DNA from: Struthio camelus
Lineage: Eukaryota; Chordata; Aves; Struthioniformes; Struthionidae
DNA: 64,000 nt
Direction: 5' to 3'
Assembly (NCBI RefSeq): GCF_040807025.1
Contig: NC_090952.1
Location: 14,505,068 to 14,569,067 of the forward strand
Below the pieces are notes generated by a model. It worked only from the letters and a program-made list of their open reading frames with translations. It was not told the DNA's origin and ran no database searches. The translations under genes and the position numbers were made by a program. Of the stretch, positions 1 through 45,008 are shown one piece after another. Every line of letters begins with the position of its first letter. Positions within the stretch are counted from its first letter, which is position 1.

Positions 1-345
1 TCTGCAGGTCAGGTAGTCCAACCTCCTGCCTAAAGCAGGACTACCACGTACACTAGGTACAGTGAACCATGTCTTTTTTTAGCCAAGTCCTGAACACCTC
101 CAAGGACGGAGGCGTCACAACCTCTGATGACTTGGTCTGGAGTCGTACTACGCTCCTTCCCCCTCCCCCCGCCCATGCCTTCCCTGAATCTCCCAAGCAT
201 TTATAATTAGCCATTCCCCTTCACATTGCTTGTCATTACCAAAAAAAAGTTTGGCTCCGTCATCTTCGTAACTACCCTTCAAATACTTTTCAGTATCTAT
301 TAGATCACCATTTAGCCTCCTCCTCAATCATTAAGTTCAGCTTCT
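1..345 (-). mobile_element. Degenerate CR1 LINE fragment
   Basis: The left part (GTAGTCCAACCTCCTGCCTA, then CTCCAAGGACGGAGG) is the antisense of the CR1 3' region. Further right, the minus strand keeps traces of the upstream CR1 segment (GATCTAATAGATACTG...GTATTTGAAGGGTAG). It is much decayed and may extend beyond the left edge. Confidence 0.7.
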
Positions 346-682
346 CTTCACTGCACTTTCACAGAGTCACTACTTTCTTAGATTAAACCTCCCTTCCCAC
401 AAGTAAAGCCTCCACTACATTCTTTGTACTAATGTACGCAACTATACTTAGTCATATTGCATCATACATTTTTTGCTTGCGCTGAGGTTAACAAGCTAAT
501 ACGACATTTTGTATCGACGAGTTGTTTTCAGTGTTAAAATTACAGGCAGAAATAAATGCAAGTTTTCACTTAGTTTTTCAAGTCACCACTCTTATCAAAG
601 TAGAAGAAACAGAAGTGAAAATCGTATCGTCTGACCAGAAAAAGCATTTGGCTAAGAAGCAACAATTTACAGCTATACTTAC

Positions 683-820
683 TGTCTTTAAATGGGGTAT
701 AACACTTCAGTTCATAGCTGATTTTGGAAGGACAACATTTATTTTCCAAGCATTCTGTTGTGTTAATGCTCTCTCCTACACGACAAGGAATTAAGATTTG
801 CTTGTCTTTGTGACGGCATG
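683..820 (-). CDS. FMR1NB: FMR1NB trefoil (P-type) exon
   Basis: 138 nt, TTAAAG acceptor and GTAAGT donor, phase 1 at both ends. It encodes [20 protein letters not shown], then [20 protein letters not shown] and TPFKD. The cysteine spacing (C...PC...C-x4-CC...C) fits the P-type trefoil pattern. A proline follows the CC pair where an aromatic residue is usual. Confidence 0.88.
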
Positions 821-3800
821 CTTTAACAAAAGAAATAAATAAAATGTAAGTTTTCAGTTCTAAAGATCAACGTTCAAACAAATAAAGGGAAGTTGAAAAC
901 ATCACTTTGATGTCTCTAAGATATTTTGCGAGTGTTTTGTGTTAGTAATAAACATTAATAAAACAGAATCTAAACATCATTGTGCCACAATTGTATTTAG
1001 GTTTGCAAAATAACCAGGAAAGAAAAATTGTTTAACTGGACTGTTTGTCATTAAAAAATAAAAATAAAATAATTAAAAAAAATACATCCAGAAACTCAAG
1101 ACAATTTAAATTTCTTCATTTTTTGAAGGACTCTGCACACAATATATTGCAACTACTTATGTCTCCATTTGGCACTAACTGCATATTTCCACAAGCAGGT
1201 AGCTTTCAGCTGCTAGTAACAAAAAGCTAAGATATCCAGTCCAGCTGGAAACAATAATATTAAATAGCAATTTAAAAACATATATTTAGATAACAGATTT
1301 GTTGGGAATCATGAGATACTCTGTGGGAAGGGCCTAAATGAATAAAATAATTATATGTCATATATAAGCTGTGACTTCTGTAAAATCTGGTAGCACATCC
1401 TTATGTGACACTTTTACAGCAGTTGCACAACATCATTTAGTTCCAACCATACTCTGAGTTTGGCTGCATTCTCAATCTCACTTTTATCACAGCCATAACT
1501 GGTAGTCAAAGTCCAAACTCATTTAATTAAACGTAGAACCAGGCACTTCATGAGAAGTCTTTACTTACTTAGGGCTAGGTGGTAACAATTAGCGCATCTC
1601 CATTGCTTCTAGTAATGTAATGGAGCAACGTACCGAGGGAAAACTAGTTTCTCTGTCTTTCCTTCGATTTATCTGTGACGTAATTATGAAACCAGGCTTG
1701 TAGCCTTTGTATATGCCAAGCCCTTTCTGCATTCATGGATATTATCTTTCATATCAATATTTGCAAATACATTCCATTGCTATTTCCTTCTCTGTAGTTT
1801 TCTGAAATAACGCAGCTCTTGTCATTTAACTTCAGCGGTCCAAAAGTTGAGCAGTTTAGTCTAAGCTAATTGCTCTGGGTCCCTCTTTAGCCAATGAGAA
1901 GTGGGAAAGCGGGACCACTATAGTGCAAAATTCTTCTTCCATTTAGGGTGCGCTGAATTGCTCTTTCCTTCTTGTGCTTATAGCAGTAATCTAGAAAACT
2001 AGTTCAGATCAGATGCAAAGGTACACAAGGTGAACCCTACTCTGAAGCGTCCAGCATTTCTAGCACAAGCACATCACTCAGGATAAAGGGTTTTGTAGGA
2101 CAACAGTAACGCAATAGAAGCAAATCACAAATCTGTAGTTGTTCCAAAGGGGTATTTAACAAAACCATTTTATGAAATCTACTACGTTTTACAATAGGGG
2201 ATAGAGGGTTTCATACACCCTAAGCGTTGGCAAGTATGGGTGGAAGTGTGGGCTGGAGGTGAGGCAGAAGGAAAGGAGAGAAGAGAGAAGGAATGTGCAG
2301 GGATGAAAGTGACACTTACTCACTGGAGCGAAGAAGTTTACAAGAGCTTCTAACGTATCTTTCAGTTTCACTTTAAGTTTGCCGGGCGCCACCTCACTTT
2401 TTTCTAAAACATGCTGAGTTGGTGATGCAAAACCTGAAAGCTCGTAATGATTGGCTCATTACCATCAAAATATCCTTAATTAATTAAATGCAATGACATT
2501 TTCATACTGATTATCTTTCATTATGAAGGCATTTATAGTCATTATGAATTGTGACTAGTGATGGCTAGCAAGGTTAAACACAAATGTCTTTCTGTCGTGC
2601 TCAATTGTATTCCTTCAAATTGCTTCATGAACCAAAATGAGTAAAGAACTGAAACTGTGAATTTTAAATTATATTAAATAATTCTTTCAGCTGGAAATTG
2701 TCAAGACAAAAAGCACTATTGTTCACATACCAGATATAGATTACATTAGAAGTATTTTATATCTACAGAGGTTTTTCTTCTCCTATATGGTGTATAAGAG
2801 CAGAATTTTTGGTCTTTTAGATCAAGATCAGACCAGAACCAAAACAAAGAAAGAGAATAGAGTAAAAAGTGGGTTTTTCAGATACAACAAACAGAGCATC
2901 TAACCTGTCTCAAACAGTGGTGAATAGGAAAGAGCAAAGAAACCCCCAAACATGGAGATACTGGGATATTTTCCCACACTCTAGTGATTTGTGACCCTGG
3001 GACTTCTTGATCAAGTCTCATTTTTACTTTCCTGAAAAACATAGCACAAATAGGTTTTGTTGCTTCACTATACACCTCTTTTCTTTTAAGGTCATGGAGA
3101 ACAGAAGAGGTGCCTGAGGACTGGAAGAAAGCAAATGTCACTCTATTCTTCAAAAAGGGCAAGAAGGAGGACCCAAGGAACTACAGGCCAGTCAGCCTCA
3201 CCTTGATTCCTGGAAAGGCAATGGAGCAGCTCATCCTGGATGCCATTTCTAAGCACATGAAGGATAAGAAGGTGATCAGGAGTAGTCAGCGTGGATTCAC
3301 CAAAGGGAAATCATGCTTGACCAATCTGATAGCCTTCTATGATGGAATGACTGGCTGGGTAGATGAGAAAGCCGTGGATGTTGTCTACCTGGACTTCAGC
3401 AAGGCTTTGGACACTGTCTCCCATCACATCCTTGTAGATAAGCTCAGGAAGTGTGGGCTGGATGAGTGGACAGTGAGGTGGATTGAGAACTGGCTGAATG
3501 GCAGGGCTCAGAGGGTTGTGATCAGGGGCACAGAGTCTAGTTGGAGGCCTGTAGCTAGTGGTGTCCCCCAGGGGTCAGTCCTGGGTCCAGTGTTGTTCAA
3601 CTTATTCATCAGTAACCTGGAGGAAGGGACAGAGTGCCTCCTCAGCAAGTTTGCTGATGATATAAAACTAGGAGGCGTGGCTGATACCTCAAAGGGCTGT
3701 GCTGCCATTCAGACAGACCTCAACAGGCTGGAGAGATGGGCAGAGAGGAACTTCCTGAAAGTCAACAAAGGCAAGGGCAGGGTCCTGCACCTGGGGAGGA

Positions 3801-6317
3801 ATAACCCCAGGCACGAGTACAGGCTGGAGGTTGACCTGCTGGAAAGCAGCTCTGCAGAGAAGGACCTGGGAGTCCTGGTGGACAACAAGTTGACCATGAG
3901 TTGGCAATGTGCCCTTGCGGCCAAGGTGGCCAGGGTATCCTGGGATGTATTAGGAAGAGTGTTGCCAGCAGGTCAAGGAAGGTGATCCTTCCCCTCTACT
4001 CAGCCCTGGTGAGGGCACACTTGGAGCAGTGTATCCAGTTCTGGGCTCCCCAGTACAAGAGTGATGTGACACTCCTGGAGAGAGTCCAGCGGAGGGCTAC
4101 TATGATTAAGGGACTGGAGCATCTCTCATATGAGGAAAGGCTGAGAGAGCTGGGACTGTTCAGCCTGGAGAAGAGAAGACTTGGTTTGGGGGGGGGGGGG
4201 GCATCTGATCAACATGCGTAAGTATCTGAAGGGAGGGTGTCAAGAGGATGGGGCCAGGTTCTTCCAGGGGTACCCCCAGTGACAGGACGAGAGGCAGCAA
4301 GCACAAATTGAAACACAGGAAGTTCTGTCTTAACATGAGGAAAGACTTCTTCATGGTGAGGGTGACTGAGTGCTGGAATAGGTTGCCCAGAGAGGTTGTG
4401 GAGTCTCCATCATTGGAGATATTCAAAAGCCATCTGCAAACAATCCTGGGCAGTGTGCTTTAAGTGACCCTACTTGAGCAGGAGGGTTGGCCTAGATGAT
4501 CTCATTCTTCTCATTCCATTAATGAGAGGTGCACATCACAGTGGCAGTCCACGGGCAATCAACTACTCCACAATGGTGGGGGTGGAGGAAAGAGGGGAGA
4601 AGACAGAGGGGAACACCACCTCACCCTGGGTATTAAATTCCCACTTGCTGTTTCCTGCCTTTTTTCCCCTCTCTACGCAAGAAACTTACCCCATCACAGC
4701 TTTGTTTAACCCCTTTCAGCGATGGAGTTCATTGAAAGCCATTTCACAGCTTTATAGTCCTTTGCGAGTAGGACAGAGATCATGGCCTAACCAGAAACTA
4801 AGATATTGAACAACTTGCTGGTCTTTTAGATGATTCTTCAGCTAGTAGCATCAAGAGCCTCAGGCATATAAATCCACTGTTCATTCTGAGGCATAACTTG
4901 CTTTTTCTGTGCAATATAGGACTCCCTTGAGGAAAAGTATCTGAGTAGGGAGAATTGAACGTATATCAAAATAGAGAACATGAAACTGACATTAACAGAA
5001 ACACATCCAAAGTTCAGACCAACAGTTATGTCATGGTCCCTGGTGGTCAAGGCACAACAGCAGAAATAGTTTTGAAGATTTTAAAATGATTTCAAAGGAA
5101 GTTCGTAAGAGAAAAGTCATCTGGCACTCTGTTGGGTAAGAAAAATCTAAGAAGAGGACCATGGTTGTCCTACAAGTTACTCCTTCATATGAGGATTTAG
5201 AGACACATGCCATATATGAAGCTCTAATAGGCACTCCACATCAAAATATGCTGCACCATGTACTTATGATTCATGTTTATACCTACATTAGAACACACCC
5301 TGAAAGTGGAATGGCTTATTCATCTAGATACTGCAGAAACATTTTACAATAACTCTTGGATCACTTGACAGCCCTTTACCAGGATCTGAAAGTGTTGCTT
5401 CTGAAGTCTAACCTTCTCAAGACCTAAAGGATCAAACACAAGCTGAATGTGTAGGCTGAGCCTTTATGCACAATTTCCAATGACTAAAGTTAACTTCTGC
5501 TGTGAATGCAACTTATCAGCCTGACAGCAATCTTAAAGTTAACTATTTTAGTCTATCTGCTATAGTATGCATGTTAAACCTTTTCAGATTTCACAAATGC
5601 CTTTAACTGTAGGCTGGGAAAACAAAATAAAAAAATAAAACCAAAAAAAAGTCAAAGTGGAAAAGAAGAATCTATAATCTAAGGTAAAACAAAAACAAGA
5701 TGCACTACCAGGGATGAAACAACAAGCATGTGTTTCTTTCACAGATGTACAAAGAGGGAAACGGTGACTATGCTTTGATGAAAAATATACTTTCCTGTAT
5801 TTTTCAGGACTATGATCAACCCTCTTTGCAGTACTGCCTTCTTATAACATTTTTCAATATTTTTCAGTCATAGCTGAGAAAGTTGTAACCTTAATTTCCT
5901 GCTAGTAAAATTATTTGCTTCTTCTATAAAGATACTTTCTTCTTGCAATACTCACTTGAACCGATGCTATGAAACAACACCAATATCACACAGTTCCACA
6001 ACAGATGAGTGCCAGTTACTCCTTGCAGCATTACTGCAATGAAAACAGTAGTAACAATGAATATGTGGTTTTGTATAAGTAACTTATTTTTTTACTTTGT
6101 ATTTACTCTTTGTAACATGACAGAAGACTGCTGCACAGAGTAGGACTGCCATCTTCATGCATTAAGATGCAGGCCAAACTCAGTAAAAAAATTACGGGCA
6201 ATAATTCCTGATTTTGAAGAAATTAGTCGCTTAGGAGAACTTACTGGGAGGACCTTGAACAGAGACTAGCCAAAAAATGGTTTCTTTTGAAGTATCCCAG
6301 TGCTGGCTATTTGACAT
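683..6317 (-). CDS. FMR1NB: FMR1NB orthologue (FMR1 neighbour, trefoil-domain membrane protein), 3'-incomplete
   Basis: Four small exons on the minus strand, at 6245-6317, 5956-6033, 2320-2433 and 683-820, join in phase. They give a short N-terminus, a hydrophobic segment ([18 protein letters not shown]), a linker with [13 protein letters not shown], and a P-type trefoil domain with [19 protein letters not shown]. Human FMR1NB, from memory, has LEALLNFFFPTTC at the same place, followed by its P-type domain. Position and orientation, immediately 3' of FMR1 on the same strand, also match human. The downstream exon(s), which in human encode a second membrane segment and a basic tail, would lie left of position 1. 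The human protein is testis-restricted and of unclear function. The first exon is the least certain. Confidence 0.82.
2320..2433 (-). CDS. FMR1NB: FMR1NB linker exon
   Basis: 114 nt, CTTTCAG acceptor and GTAAGT donor, phase 1 at both ends. It encodes [20 protein letters not shown] then [17 protein letters not shown]. The last part aligns with human DSALEALLNFFFPTTC. The split threonine codon at the junction (A + CA) restores TC before the trefoil. Confidence 0.85.
3070..4522 (+). mobile_element. CR1 LINE, 5'-truncated, reverse-transcriptase part of ORF2 to 3' end
   Basis: A 5'-truncated copy lying antisense in the FMR1NB intron. A long frame (3110-3985) shows reverse-transcriptase motifs in order: [32 protein letters not shown], the catalytic [25 protein letters not shown], and FADDIKLGG with the paired aspartates. 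The frame then shifts to 3901-4221 ([20 protein letters not shown]), which runs into a 13-bp G run near 4188-4201 and is broken. The 3' tail has the CR1 GGTTGGCCTAGATGATCTCA signature. It is well preserved compared with the other CR1 fragments here, so it is among the youngest. Confidence 0.93.
5956..6033 (-). CDS. FMR1NB: FMR1NB hydrophobic-segment exon
   Basis: 78 nt after a strong polypyrimidine acceptor (CTGTTTTCATTGCAG), ending at a GTGAGT donor with phase 1. It encodes [20 protein letters not shown] then HSIGS, and the split codon gives S before FASP. Human FMR1NB has a tryptophan-containing membrane segment ending in GSSYF at this position. The hydrophobic run is short and could be a signal anchor or a signal peptide. 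The ATG at 6029-6031 could itself be the start if exon 1 is non-coding. Confidence 0.7.
6245..6317 (-). CDS. FMR1NB: Candidate FMR1NB first coding exon
   Basis: From ATG at 6315-6317 an open frame of 24 codons ([20 protein letters not shown] then QGPP) runs to a strong CCCA/GTAAGT donor. Its phase joins in frame with the exon at 6033 across a 211-nt intron. An in-frame TAG precedes the ATG. A frame this short can arise by chance and similarity to the human N-terminus is weak, so this is tentative. Confidence 0.45.
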
Positions 6318-9300
6318 TAAAAGCTAATCACTTTTAGCTGTTTTAATTCAGGTTTAGGGCCAGAAGTGGGACTGAAGAAGCAACCATCTTTGGAAAATTA
6401 TGACAGATTATCTAATTTAGCTTACTGAATTCTTCAGTCTTTCCAACGCTAGAGAGTATGAAATACTTTGGATAAAAAAAACATTTTTAAAAAAGGGGTC
6501 CAAAAGGATACTTTAGATAAAAATATTTAAAAAAAAATCCCAAGCCATTCACATTAATTGAGCAGCAGATGTTGAGATGGGCTTTATACCCCAAAACTGC
6601 TTCTTGAAGACTGCTTTAACGGATGCTGTATTTCACTTTGCCTGGCTGCTACCTGTTCCTGTGACCTTTAACGAGTCTTCCAATTATTACCATGTACATA
6701 TTTAGTAGCTAAAGCAGCTTAAACCTAAAGATTATTTTAAATGATTAGTATTGGTATGGGAGCAGAACTCCATTTTCATAAGCACCGCACACAGAGGAGT
6801 AAGATTGCATTTTACACAGATCCTGTCCTTTGAAGGAGCTATTCTCTCTGTACTCCTGCTAAACGTGAATAACTTCCCTGCAGTTAGAACATACCTGTTC
6901 TGTAGAATAATATACAAGTATGTTCTCTGCCCCACAGAATAGCTTTGCCTTGGCACTTAAGTGTGAAATTATTTCTTAACAGGACAGGTCACAAGGAGCA
7001 AAGGCAAAACTTGCTTTTCCAGAAATCTATTATAATGCAATGCCATCCAGGAGAAATGGGAAAGGAGGAAACACTTTCTGAGAGTGGGGAAACAAGGCAG
7101 ATTTAAAGGTTCTAGCTTTGCCCCTTACCTACTTCGCCTTTCGCTATCTTTCTCTGCTACTGCTGGAACTGGAAGATCATGGCTATCCACAACGCAGCAG
7201 CTACAGACTTCTTAGGCAAGACAGAACATGGACACAGGAAAGCCTGTCACAATGGACTCCCTGTTACCCGTGACATCGCTCACAGTGAACAGTACAGATG
7301 CGGTACCTGCATCAGCCATTTAAGGGAATGTTAAAAAGCCACATATGCAGTTAACTCCTGAGAAATTCGGCCCCTAAAAGAGCCAAGACCAAGTTACAGG
7401 CCCCTTAGTCTTCCCATCCCCTGAGTTAAAACTGAGTTTATCCCATTCTCTATCACAGCTCACTGTGCAAAACAAAAACACCACCTAGAAAACAACTGTG
7501 GAGATCAGGTAATAGAAACTGCAGTCCATTGATATACTCCTCAAATAGCCAAAGTTTAGGCAGATCATATAAGGTAGAACTTCCTAATAATTCCACTGTA
7601 TGTAAACTGACACGTAACATTTCATTCAGGTGTCAAAAAAATTGGCTCAAACATGTAAAGTGCACACTAATTCTTGAATGAGGGTCACCCTACCAGTTCC
7701 CGAAACAAGTCTCCACACTGGAAGCAAAGGGCTATTCAAACATCAGTCTCTCTCATTCTTAGACATTTCCATTCAATTTATTAATGGAATGTTCTTTGGA
7801 TAGACCAGGAACAGTGTTTAAAAAAAATACAGAAACCTAAAGTAAATGTAGACACTGGAGGAAAAAAAAAAAAAAAAAAAGCTCTCAAAACAATCTAGCT
7901 CCCTAAAGCATTTACCATGTTTTAGAAAAAGCTTAAGCATCCACTGCTGTCTAAACAGATAAGAGATCTTGAAAAAAGTTACATATATGCACATGTATTT
8001 TTTTATCCTTAGTTAACTAATGAATAATGAGTTAAGAAGGGTGACTTCTTTTAAACTGCACTTTCTAAATAGCATTAGTTTGTTACGACAAAGTCAAGGA
8101 GCCTCACTTGCATTGTTTCTTTCTGAACAAACTATATGCTGCCACTCTCAATACTACCAATGAGGAGATATTTACAGACAGCCAATACAGAAGCATTTGA
8201 CCGAACATATAATTAAGATTTTGCTTTGATTTCCGTCATGGAACACTGCATATGATGGAATGCATTACTGGGACCATACAACTATGGGAATTTTCAGATT
8301 GCAGGGAGTATTAGAAAGGTGTCCATACATGTTATCACCTTGTCGTTGTTTTTCTAGTTTAAGGCTGATGACTCTCCTTGCTGTAGCCTACTCCTGAGGC
8401 CTAAGCTAAAACCATCAGCCCACCCCCCCAAAAACTCCGCAAACTCCAAAGAGTTCTTCCAGTTACACCATTTTTGTAACAATCATATTTCTATTCATTT
8501 ATAGGGATAACATGCCTGCAGAGAGAGAGAGAGAGAGAGAGAGAGAAGCAGCTGGCTTACATCCACGCTTTAGTAGTCAGTATTTACTTCCACCAGCAAT
8601 TTGATGATGATCTTTATAGCCAAGCAAGCAGGAGTGAGTGGCATGGGGTACTCTTGAGAAAAACCTCTTAGGATTATGAAAAGGATTCCTCCCAACAATG
8701 GCATCAGCTCCAAAGGCTGATGTGCAAGACTCATGCTACTTAAGAATAGAGAGCAGTAATAGTAAACCTAACCTTTTCAATGGCACAAGTACTGTAAGAA
8801 CATGATGTGAAAGTCACACCACATCTAAGTAAGCCTGGTACAACTCTAGCAAGGGAAATAACCCTGCAGATCAAACCGGTATCTATTCAGAACACTTGTC
8901 TTAGGAATGATCTGTTTTCATCACATATATAAAGATGATGTCATACACTTAAAATATCAAAGTTCCCCTAGCCATCCTGATTTTCATGGCTGTGAATACA
9001 GTTGGGGAAGACTGACTAACAATATCATTAAGTGAAAGTGGACAAAAACCAATCTTACTACACGCTGTTACAAAAACTGCTACTACATCAGGCTAACCTT
9101 GCTACTTTAAGCACCCAACAGAATCTAGATTTTATTTATTTTAAATATAGGTATTCCATTATGAGTCTTAGTGTTTCTGGAAATGGAAAAAATCTTTTAA
9201 CAATACACAATAAAAGAAAAAAAACTTTAAGACTCACCTTTGCTCTTGCAGATTAGTACAGAATGCCAGTTTCCAGAATCATACAGTCGGGTTCCTGAAG

Positions 9301-10514
9301 CAGCTGAGGAATACTTATTCAGAAGCTAATTAATCTATTTCCTTTTAATATTCAATTACTGAAGAGTTTTGAGGAGAAAGCTGTTGCAGTTCAGGAAAAT
9401 CAGTTATCTTTCACAGTAAGCGCTCCTACGAAGAACGCAGAGTCTATGCTCAGTATCATAATCACAGTACTTAATTTTGTTTCTGGCTTGTTGAAAGAAA
9501 ATCAAACACAGTATACAAAATTATGTTTGAGATTAGAGATACAAACTTCAGAAAAGCTCATGTGCAACTAAGTCATTTAAAGAATTTAAATGTATAATAA
9601 GTACTTAAGAATAAAGTACTCAAGAAACTAAATTGATTTGCTTCTTGAATTCAGGCTCATAAACAGAAAAGATCTTCATCTGTTTCAAATAAGCTATTTT
9701 AAAATACTCCTTTCTTGATGTAGTTTTATACCAACTCTGAAAATCTTAACTTCCCACCATAATTAATAAAAATGTATTTACTAAAGAAAGGAAACAAACT
9801 TTCTCTCTATTTTCATAAGCATTTGTTATTTTATAGGCTTTGAGCTTAGCCTTATTGAAATTTAAACTTTGGCATCATTCACAAATAGCTCTCACTCTTT
9901 AAAAAGGACTTTATTTTTAAAATAATTTTAATTCATTAGACCATACTTGATAAGTTACCAGTAGGACCTGAACCCAAGCATCAGACATTTGCTGCACTTT
10001 CAAGTTTTGTAACAACACATGATTTTCCAAAACAAACAAAAAAAAATTGTACATTTAGATTTACAGTTCAGTTTGTTGAAATTTACTAACATTTAAAAAC
10101 ACTGGAATTTGAATCAAAAGGGATACATATTAAGCACGTAGAAATACTGAAAAAGGTCATAGCCCCAAAATACATTTGGAAATGGAATGTGATTAATATG
10201 ACAGACTGCAGTTTAGTAATTTCACGTTTAACCTAGTTAGCACCTTAGTGAACTCAACTACTGAATATAAAAAATTTAACGCATATAACGTGACAACTCA
10301 ACAGGTATTGTACCATTTCATCATGAAGTTTCATTTTTTTGTGAGCATTATGTGCCATGTTTTGGAAAACTTCTGAAATATTACAAGTTTTCAAAATTAT
10401 GTGAAAATAAGCAATGGCTACAGTTAAAATTTTAAACAGAGAAATACTTTCCTTCTACTTGTCATAAGTTGACTTTTTTAAAGCAATCATTTATAAGGAT
10501 TGCATCAACATCAC
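6318..10514. other. FMR1 to FMR1NB intergenic spacer
   Basis: About 4.2 kb. It must contain the FMR1NB promoter and any non-coding first exon. No CpG island or convincing TATA box was seen. It holds an A18 run at 7862-7879 and the (GA)13 at 8521-8546. Short open frames here resemble nothing known to me. Confidence 0.6.
8521..8546 (+). repeat. (GA)13 microsatellite
   Basis: An uninterrupted GA dinucleotide run between FMR1 and FMR1NB. Confidence 0.95.
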
Positions 10515-12301: not shown

Positions 12302-44410
<32,109 letters not shown>

Positions 44411-44690
44411 GTTGTGCCGCGGCGGCTCGGTGCGGGAGACCCAGGCCCGGCGCCTCCTCCCTTCCCTTTCTCTCGCTCTCGGCGCAGGAGGGGGAAGAGG
44501 AGGAGGTGGATGTGTGCCGGGGAGGGGGAGGGGAGGGGGAACCTCAGTTCACGCCGTGCCCGAGGGGGGTGGGGCCGCGCGAGGGGCGGAGGGCGAGGCT
44601 GCCGGCGAGCGGCTGGGGGGGACGCCGCGGGGACGCTCCTCGCCTCCGCTCCGCGCCCGCGCCCGCCCGGAAATGAAAGCGAAACGGTCA
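44411..44690 (-). other. FMR1: FMR1 5'UTR with CCT-rich tract instead of CGG repeat
   Basis: About 280 nt between the inferred start site and the ATG. On the mRNA strand it carries C/T-rich runs: CCCCTC-type repeats at about 44519-44541 and CCTCCTCCTC-type at about 44483-44508. There is no CGG array, only CCGCCGCGG next to the ATG. A CCT 5'UTR repeat has been described for chicken FMR1, which fits an avian source. The plus strand across the tract is G-run rich. Confidence 0.8.
44667..44690 (-). promoter_or_regulatory. FMR1: FMR1 start-site block with ETS/IRF-like element
   Basis: The plus strand reads CCGGAAATGAAAGCGAAACG, a GGAA core followed by GAAANNGAAAC. The human promoter, from memory, has CCGGAAGTGAAACCGAAACG at its pyrimidine-rich initiator region. 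The block therefore probably marks the avian transcription start. The start position is inferred. Confidence 0.65.
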
Positions 44691-44744
44691 CCGCCGGGCG
44701 GCGCGGGGGGCGGGGGGGGGAGCCTGGGGGCGCCCGCTCCGAAT

Positions 44745-44772
44745 GTAAACAGTAACCCTGCGTCACGTGACG
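44745..44772 (-). promoter_or_regulatory. FMR1: FMR1 proximal promoter: E-box palindrome and GTTTAC motif
   Basis: A perfect 12-bp palindrome CGTCACGTGACG (44761-44772) combines a USF-type CACGTG with TGACG half-sites. GTTTAC follows at 44745-44750, read on the minus strand. The same order, CACGTGACG then GTTTACA, occurs upstream of the human start site as I remember it. Confidence 0.7.
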
Positions 44773-44856: not shown

Positions 44857-44885
44857 CGACCCGACCCGACCCGACCCGACCCGTC
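44857..44885 (-). repeat. (GGGTC)n pentanucleotide repeat
   Basis: The plus strand reads CGACC repeated about five times. On the minus strand this is GGGTC repeats, four or more G3 runs with 2-nt loops. It lies about 170-200 bp upstream of the inferred FMR1 start. Confidence 0.85.
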
Positions 44886-45008
44886 CCGCGCCCCGCCGCG
44901 CCCCTCCCGCGCGCAGCCGCAACGGCGAGGGGGCAACCTAACCCGGCAGTTGCGAGTCACATCCCGCCTCCCCCTTGCCCTGGCGCGCCTGACTGACGGC
45001 CCCGTCGG

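Follow-up and report, generated by a model that had tools for sequence, protein, structure and literature searches.

Human FMR1NB, an X-linked cancer/testis antigen, lies 3' of FMR1 in the same orientation. According to PMC3573764, the human protein, also named NY-SAR-35, is a rare cancer/testis antigen of the cell surface; PMC10876628 describes it as supporting the fidelity of mitosis in tumour cells. Mouse Fmr1nb expression falls in early prophase I and in pre-pachytene spermatocytes (PMC3916230), and the gene is reported from knockouts to be dispensable for spermatogenesis (PMC7270182). FMR1NB is fast-evolving, with a human-chimp dN/dS of 1.64 (PMC1890293) and a mouse-rat dN/dS of 0.65 for Fmr1nb versus 0.06 for Fmr1 (PMC3916230). 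A table in PMC7270182 locates mouse Fmr1nb (68.76 Mb) between Fmr1 and Aff2 (69.5-69.8 Mb), with Fmr1 entered ahead of Fmr1nb and given no position. In a blastp survey of 189 vertebrates, among them 3 birds and 18 reptiles, FMR1NB has also been scored and ranked last among nine hits, uncorrected, for coupling with PRDM9 (PMC8892340). Our literature searches, which say little about gene databases, found no description of an avian FMR1NB.

Here we report a bird gene adjoining FMR1 that, judged from its sequence, is very probably the orthologue of mammalian FMR1NB (NY-SAR-35, CT37) and apparently intact. The window referred to below is the whole stretch of DNA that was analysed, 64,000 nt in length (C11:14505068-14569067); negative window coordinates lie to its left.

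Gene structure

Four minus-strand exons had been set out in the original prediction. Cut out and translated anew, they were reproduced letter for letter in their coordinates, GT-AG borders, phases and single open frame (Table 1). Exons 2-4 are each preceded by AG, all four are followed by GT, every junction is in phase 1, and the resulting frame encodes 134 residues with six cysteines. The remaining exons were sought after adding 40 kb to the left of the window (104 kb in total), by searching for phase-1 exons with a hydrophobic stretch. A second membrane-segment exon, which the original prediction had suggested looking for by extending the sequence leftwards, was found in this way as exon 5. 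It was picked from 26 hydrophobic phase-1 candidates, reads NLQLTFRLFVLGAGGFFILGCLPFCCCACLQR and ends at the donor AGGTAAGA in phase 2; compared with the human TM2 peptides, it was the top of 454 candidate phase-1 acceptor exons by a thin margin (34 versus 32). Exon 6 follows about 0.6 kb further on, with a strong acceptor, a matching phase and a TAG stop codon at -2590, and an AATAAA signal is located at window -2619, 29 nt after this stop.

The full model comprises six exons and five GT-AG introns (211, 3522, 1499, 2417 and 611 nt) with an unbroken frame of 215 aa. Its coding sequence extends to window coordinate -2590, and the span given originally (683..6317) covers part of the gene. The acceptor of exon 3 scored 0.51 on an ad hoc scale, versus 0.73-0.98 for the other four acceptors of the gene. 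The earlier statement that no exon exceeds 140 nt fails once all six exons are counted, as exon 6 has 148 coding nt. That the internal exons are symmetrical and skippable holds for exons 2-4 (78, 114 and 138 nt), which are in phase 1 and multiples of three, and which from their sequence might be skipped without a frameshift. Silent skipping is not open to all internal exons, since the length of exon 5 (97 nt) cannot be divided by three.

A sequence that looks like a bird CR1 LINE (window about 3100-4500) takes up a large share of intron 2 (3.5 kb). A search of the 64,000-nt window against Rfam gave 0 matches at gathering scores.

Table 1. Features of the putative bird FMR1NB gene and its neighbours (window coordinates unless a contig is named).
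Feature	Position	Strand	Details
FMR1 coding exons	44410-12305	-	tblastn, 13 alignments, M1 through C-terminus
Exon 1 (as proposed)	6317-6245	-	73 nt; 24 codons + 1 base; donor CAGTAAGT
Exon 2, hydrophobic segment (signal peptide or signal anchor)	6033-5956	-	78 nt; acceptor and donor both good
Exon 3, linker and conserved LEAL motif	2433-2320	-	114 nt; acceptor weak
Exon 4, six-cysteine lumenal/extracellular domain	820-683	-	138 nt; C-terminal end KCYTPFKD; NTT as potential glycosylation site
Intron 4, part inside the window	1..682	-	gene runs on to the left of the window
Exon 5, second membrane segment	-1735 to -1831 (L002:8265-8169)	-	97 nt; CLPFCCCACLQR
Exon 6, tail and TAG	-2443 to -2590 (L002:7557-7410)	-	148 coding nt
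AFF-family gene	C11:14084776-14299181	-	PF05110 matches; about 203 kb beyond exon 6

Exon 1 and the start of translation

The status of exon 1 as coding sequence is uncertain, and it could be 5' untranslated or wrong. It is one of two ATG-led frames with a phase-1 donor (score of at least 6) between positions 9900 and 6040, and the context of its ATG is weak, with T at both -3 and +4. Exon 2 carries an ATG of its own as the second codon, which after splicing has A at -3 and is followed by a signal-peptide-like stretch; from the sequence, translation may start in either exon. The printed human N-terminal peptides (contigs h1 and h2) gave no convincing match in six frames of the 104 kb, and no counterpart of them was found in the bird protein. 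Since the N-termini of fast-evolving proteins often escape detection, we do not count this mismatch as defining for FMR1NB orthology. A CpG island is absent at the gene start, the observed/expected ratio being 0.19 in the 500 nt from 6500 down (window 6000-6500), whereas titles in the reference lists of PMC10876628 and PMC3573764 point to control of human NY-SAR-35 by CpG-island methylation.

Similarity to human FMR1NB

Predicted epitopes of human NY-SAR-35, that is, FMR1NB from UniProt Q8N0W7 (255 aa), are printed in a vaccine-design study (PMC11207152). Once merged, these peptides span the protein from membrane segment 1 as far as the first cysteine; the region between the last cysteine and the end of membrane segment 2 is covered in pieces. 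The peptides LEALLNFFF and FFFPTTCNL (PMC11207152) confirmed the human pre-trefoil motif that the original prediction had cited. The printed peptides are collinear with exons 2-5 of the spliced bird protein, and the human KCFAPF aligns with the C-terminal end of exon 4. For the TM1-to-PTTC stretch (score 86), the KCFAPF-to-CLPIYC stretch (54) and the LEAL contig LEALLNFFFPTTC in exon 3 (55), none of 2000 shuffles of either partner attained the observed score, while 3 of 2000 did so for the human TM1 stretch alone against exon 2. The small human contigs are weak when taken alone, as 19 (h6), 716 (h7) and 157 (h8) of 2000 human-side shuffles reached their scores. Taken singly in an unspliced six-frame scan of the 104 kb, the short human peptides had their best match inside the gene for only one of eight contigs (h5).

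With the printed human letters only, the best tblastn match in the 104 kb was exon 3 (E 0.010), and blastp gave an E value of 3e-4 (composition-adjusted, for an assumed database of 25 million residues). When the unprinted middle of the human protein was filled in provisionally, blastp gave 37.5% identity over 136 columns and an E value of 3.6e-18 (composition-adjusted, same assumed database); this provisional region may contain errors, which would bear on the blastp, Pfam and whole-genome figures obtained with it. A tblastn search with human FMR1NB had been proposed as a check. Run with the partly provisional query over the whole genome (1.45 Gb, 262 contigs; 2 candidates scored), it reported a sole match, which is exon 4 (E 4.9e-4). 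Exons 2 and 5 were missed by unspliced tblastn, both in the whole genome with the partly provisional query and in the 104 kb with the printed letters.

A second intact copy was not found when the bird protein was compared with the genome (7 candidates scored): five of the six matches are its own exons on contig C11, and the sixth, on contig C5 (E 0.02), contains four stops. The bird gene appears to be single-copy and is autosomal-looking.

Genomic neighbourhood

FMR1 was located with a provisional FMRP query. The bird gene starts about 6 kb downstream of the FMR1 stop codon on the same strand, and the order FMR1, bird gene, AFF-family gene, all on the minus strand, bears out the predicted location 3' of FMR1 in the same orientation. 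Matches to the AF-4 family (PF05110) form four clusters in the genome, on contigs C1, C4, C11 and C13; the place of the gene on C11 suggests that it is AFF2 and no other AFF. In bird and mammal alike, FMR1NB lies next to FMR1. The two genes were therefore together before the bird-mammal split, as had been proposed for the tandem pair, and the order FMR1-FMR1NB-AFF goes back at least to the ancestor that birds and mammals share.

The longest AFF-family match on C11 (C11:14293336-14294235) contains one internal TAG, which may lie in an intron or at the edge of the gene model, or be a genuine stop. Just ahead of the FMR1 start codon, window 44340-44760 (minus strand) is GC-rich and has no CGG run like the human fragile X repeat; a tandem-repeat scan near the FMR1 start found only a CGACC array and a 21-mer at 44857-44920.

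The six-cysteine domain

A loosened pattern for the cysteines of exon 4, C-x(9,10)-C-x(9,10)-C-x4-CC-x(9,10)-C, has a single occurrence across the six frames of the 104 kb and none in 100 first-order Markov sequences of the same length. The domain had been called a P-type trefoil. The six-cysteine spacing is near that of trefoil domains, if not exactly that of TFF1, but the Pfam Trefoil profile (PF00088) is silent on the bird domain: it matched neither the spliced partial protein nor exon 4 with or without flanks, while a human TFF1 control scored 64.5 bits. Exon 4 is likewise absent among the 35 genome-wide Trefoil matches listed at E up to 10, of which 14 lie above the cut-off. In contrast to the bird domain, the human FMR1NB domain, in its partly provisional form, scored 22.1 bits against a cut-off of 21. 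A sequence search of the PDB gave no support for a trefoil in the bird domain. AlphaFold2 applied to exon 4 alone (45 residues, single sequence) yielded a model too poor to judge the fold by (pLDDT 62.6, pTM 0.36), for which comparison with the PDB by Foldseek and VIA-align found no fold match. None of these four approaches gave support for assigning the bird domain to Trefoil. Since Pfam is silent and the spacing is the sole direct support, we use the label six-cysteine domain; its sequence suggests that it is probably a diverged trefoil by descent. In PMC8892340, FMR1NB is among 15 genes without detectable domains.

Discussion

The identification as the FMR1NB orthologue, already made in the original prediction, is supported by the collinear human peptides, by FMR1 and AFF neighbours on one strand and by the presence of exon 5. 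The resemblance might be argued to be a coincidence of chance open frames, given the shortness of the exons, the frequency of splice-like sites (GT[A/G]AG occurs once per 514 nt on the gene's strand) and the 26 candidates available for exon 5. Such a coincidence is exceedingly improbable in view of the collinear stretches that no shuffle matched, the failure of Markov sequences to produce the six-cysteine pattern, the position flanked by FMR1 and an AFF gene, and the sole reported genome-wide match of the partly provisional human protein, which falls here. We also give next to no credence to a gene of the TFF-like trefoil-factor family without kinship to FMR1NB: although the cysteine spacing is close to that of trefoil domains, the profile that detects TFF1 misses the bird domain, both in the protein and among the listed genome matches, and the flanking membrane segments and LEAL motif agree with FMR1NB.

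The locus could also be that of FMR1NB and yet hold a decaying or non-expressed relic, open by chance or following recent loss, which would be in keeping with the weak acceptor of exon 3, the lack of homology support for the first exon and the lack of a CpG island at exon 1 (observed/expected about 0.2). A frame that is open over six exons (215 codons), with five GT-AG introns and AATAAA after the stop, makes a relic very unlikely, as does the retention of all six cysteines and of the second membrane segment; in a very old relic, one would expect stops or frameshifts. The preferred reading is an apparently intact FMR1NB orthologue.

At least five consecutive exons encode, in this order, a hydrophobic N-terminal segment, the LEAL linker, the six-cysteine domain, a hydrophobic segment ending in cysteines and a polar tail. 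The first hydrophobic segment would bring the six-cysteine domain into the lumen or outside the cell, and the second would stop transfer and leave the short tail facing the cytosol. The product would be a two-pass membrane protein, or a one-pass protein if the first segment is cleaved, with a small disulphide-stapled domain held on the lumenal or cell-surface side and a cysteine-rich membrane end that is perhaps palmitoylated. By analogy with its mammalian counterparts, germ cells would produce the bird protein, and its action would take place at the membrane, where the six-cysteine domain probably makes the contacts.

The coupling of FMR1NB with PRDM9 can be considered in the light of this gene. 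A genome search for SSXRD (PF09514), a marker of PRDM9, gave 0 matches (17 candidates scored), though it was run without a positive control and does not show absence. Birds are not known to carry PRDM9. This agrees with the account of losses in PMC8892340. If this bird is without PRDM9, it follows that FMR1NB persists without it. We tentatively propose, as a reading that falls somewhat short of even odds, that FMR1NB, a germline membrane protein of ancient amniote origin, persists in a lineage without PRDM9, so that the uncorrected statistical coupling in PMC8892340 would not represent functional dependence, and that the bird lumenal domain has kept the cysteine lattice while drifting past trefoil recognition.

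We regard the result as a sound gene identification and not as a new kind of system: the bird FMR1NB is real, correctly named and ordinary in kind. An autosomal-looking counterpart beside FMR1 in a bird implies that the gene predates the X linkage of the mammalian copy. On its own, the bird gene answers no mechanistic question. It provides an outgroup with which to study the protein's function and to ask which of its parts are constrained, conspicuous candidates being the LEAL motif, the cysteines and the second membrane segment, and a bird model would aid the annotation of an easily missed gene.

Comparison with known systems

Trefoil proteins such as TFF1 and the bird domain have in common six cysteines, a C-x4-CC core and a similar spacing. 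The bird domain differs in having x10 between the second and third cysteines, where the TFF1-type trefoil has x9, and a proline after CC, where trefoil proteins have an aromatic residue. It is flanked by membrane segments, whereas TFF1-type trefoil proteins are secreted.

Compared with human FMR1NB, the bird model is shorter (215 versus 255 aa) and has a cysteine run, CCCAC, after CLPF that is unlike the human protein. Its tail presumably also differs in sequence, as judged against a provisional human tail. In both species, the gene adjoins FMR1, and the protein has a cysteine domain between two hydrophobic segments, the motif LEALxNFFxPxTC, KC[FY]xPF just ahead of membrane segment 2 and CLPxxC at the end of that segment.
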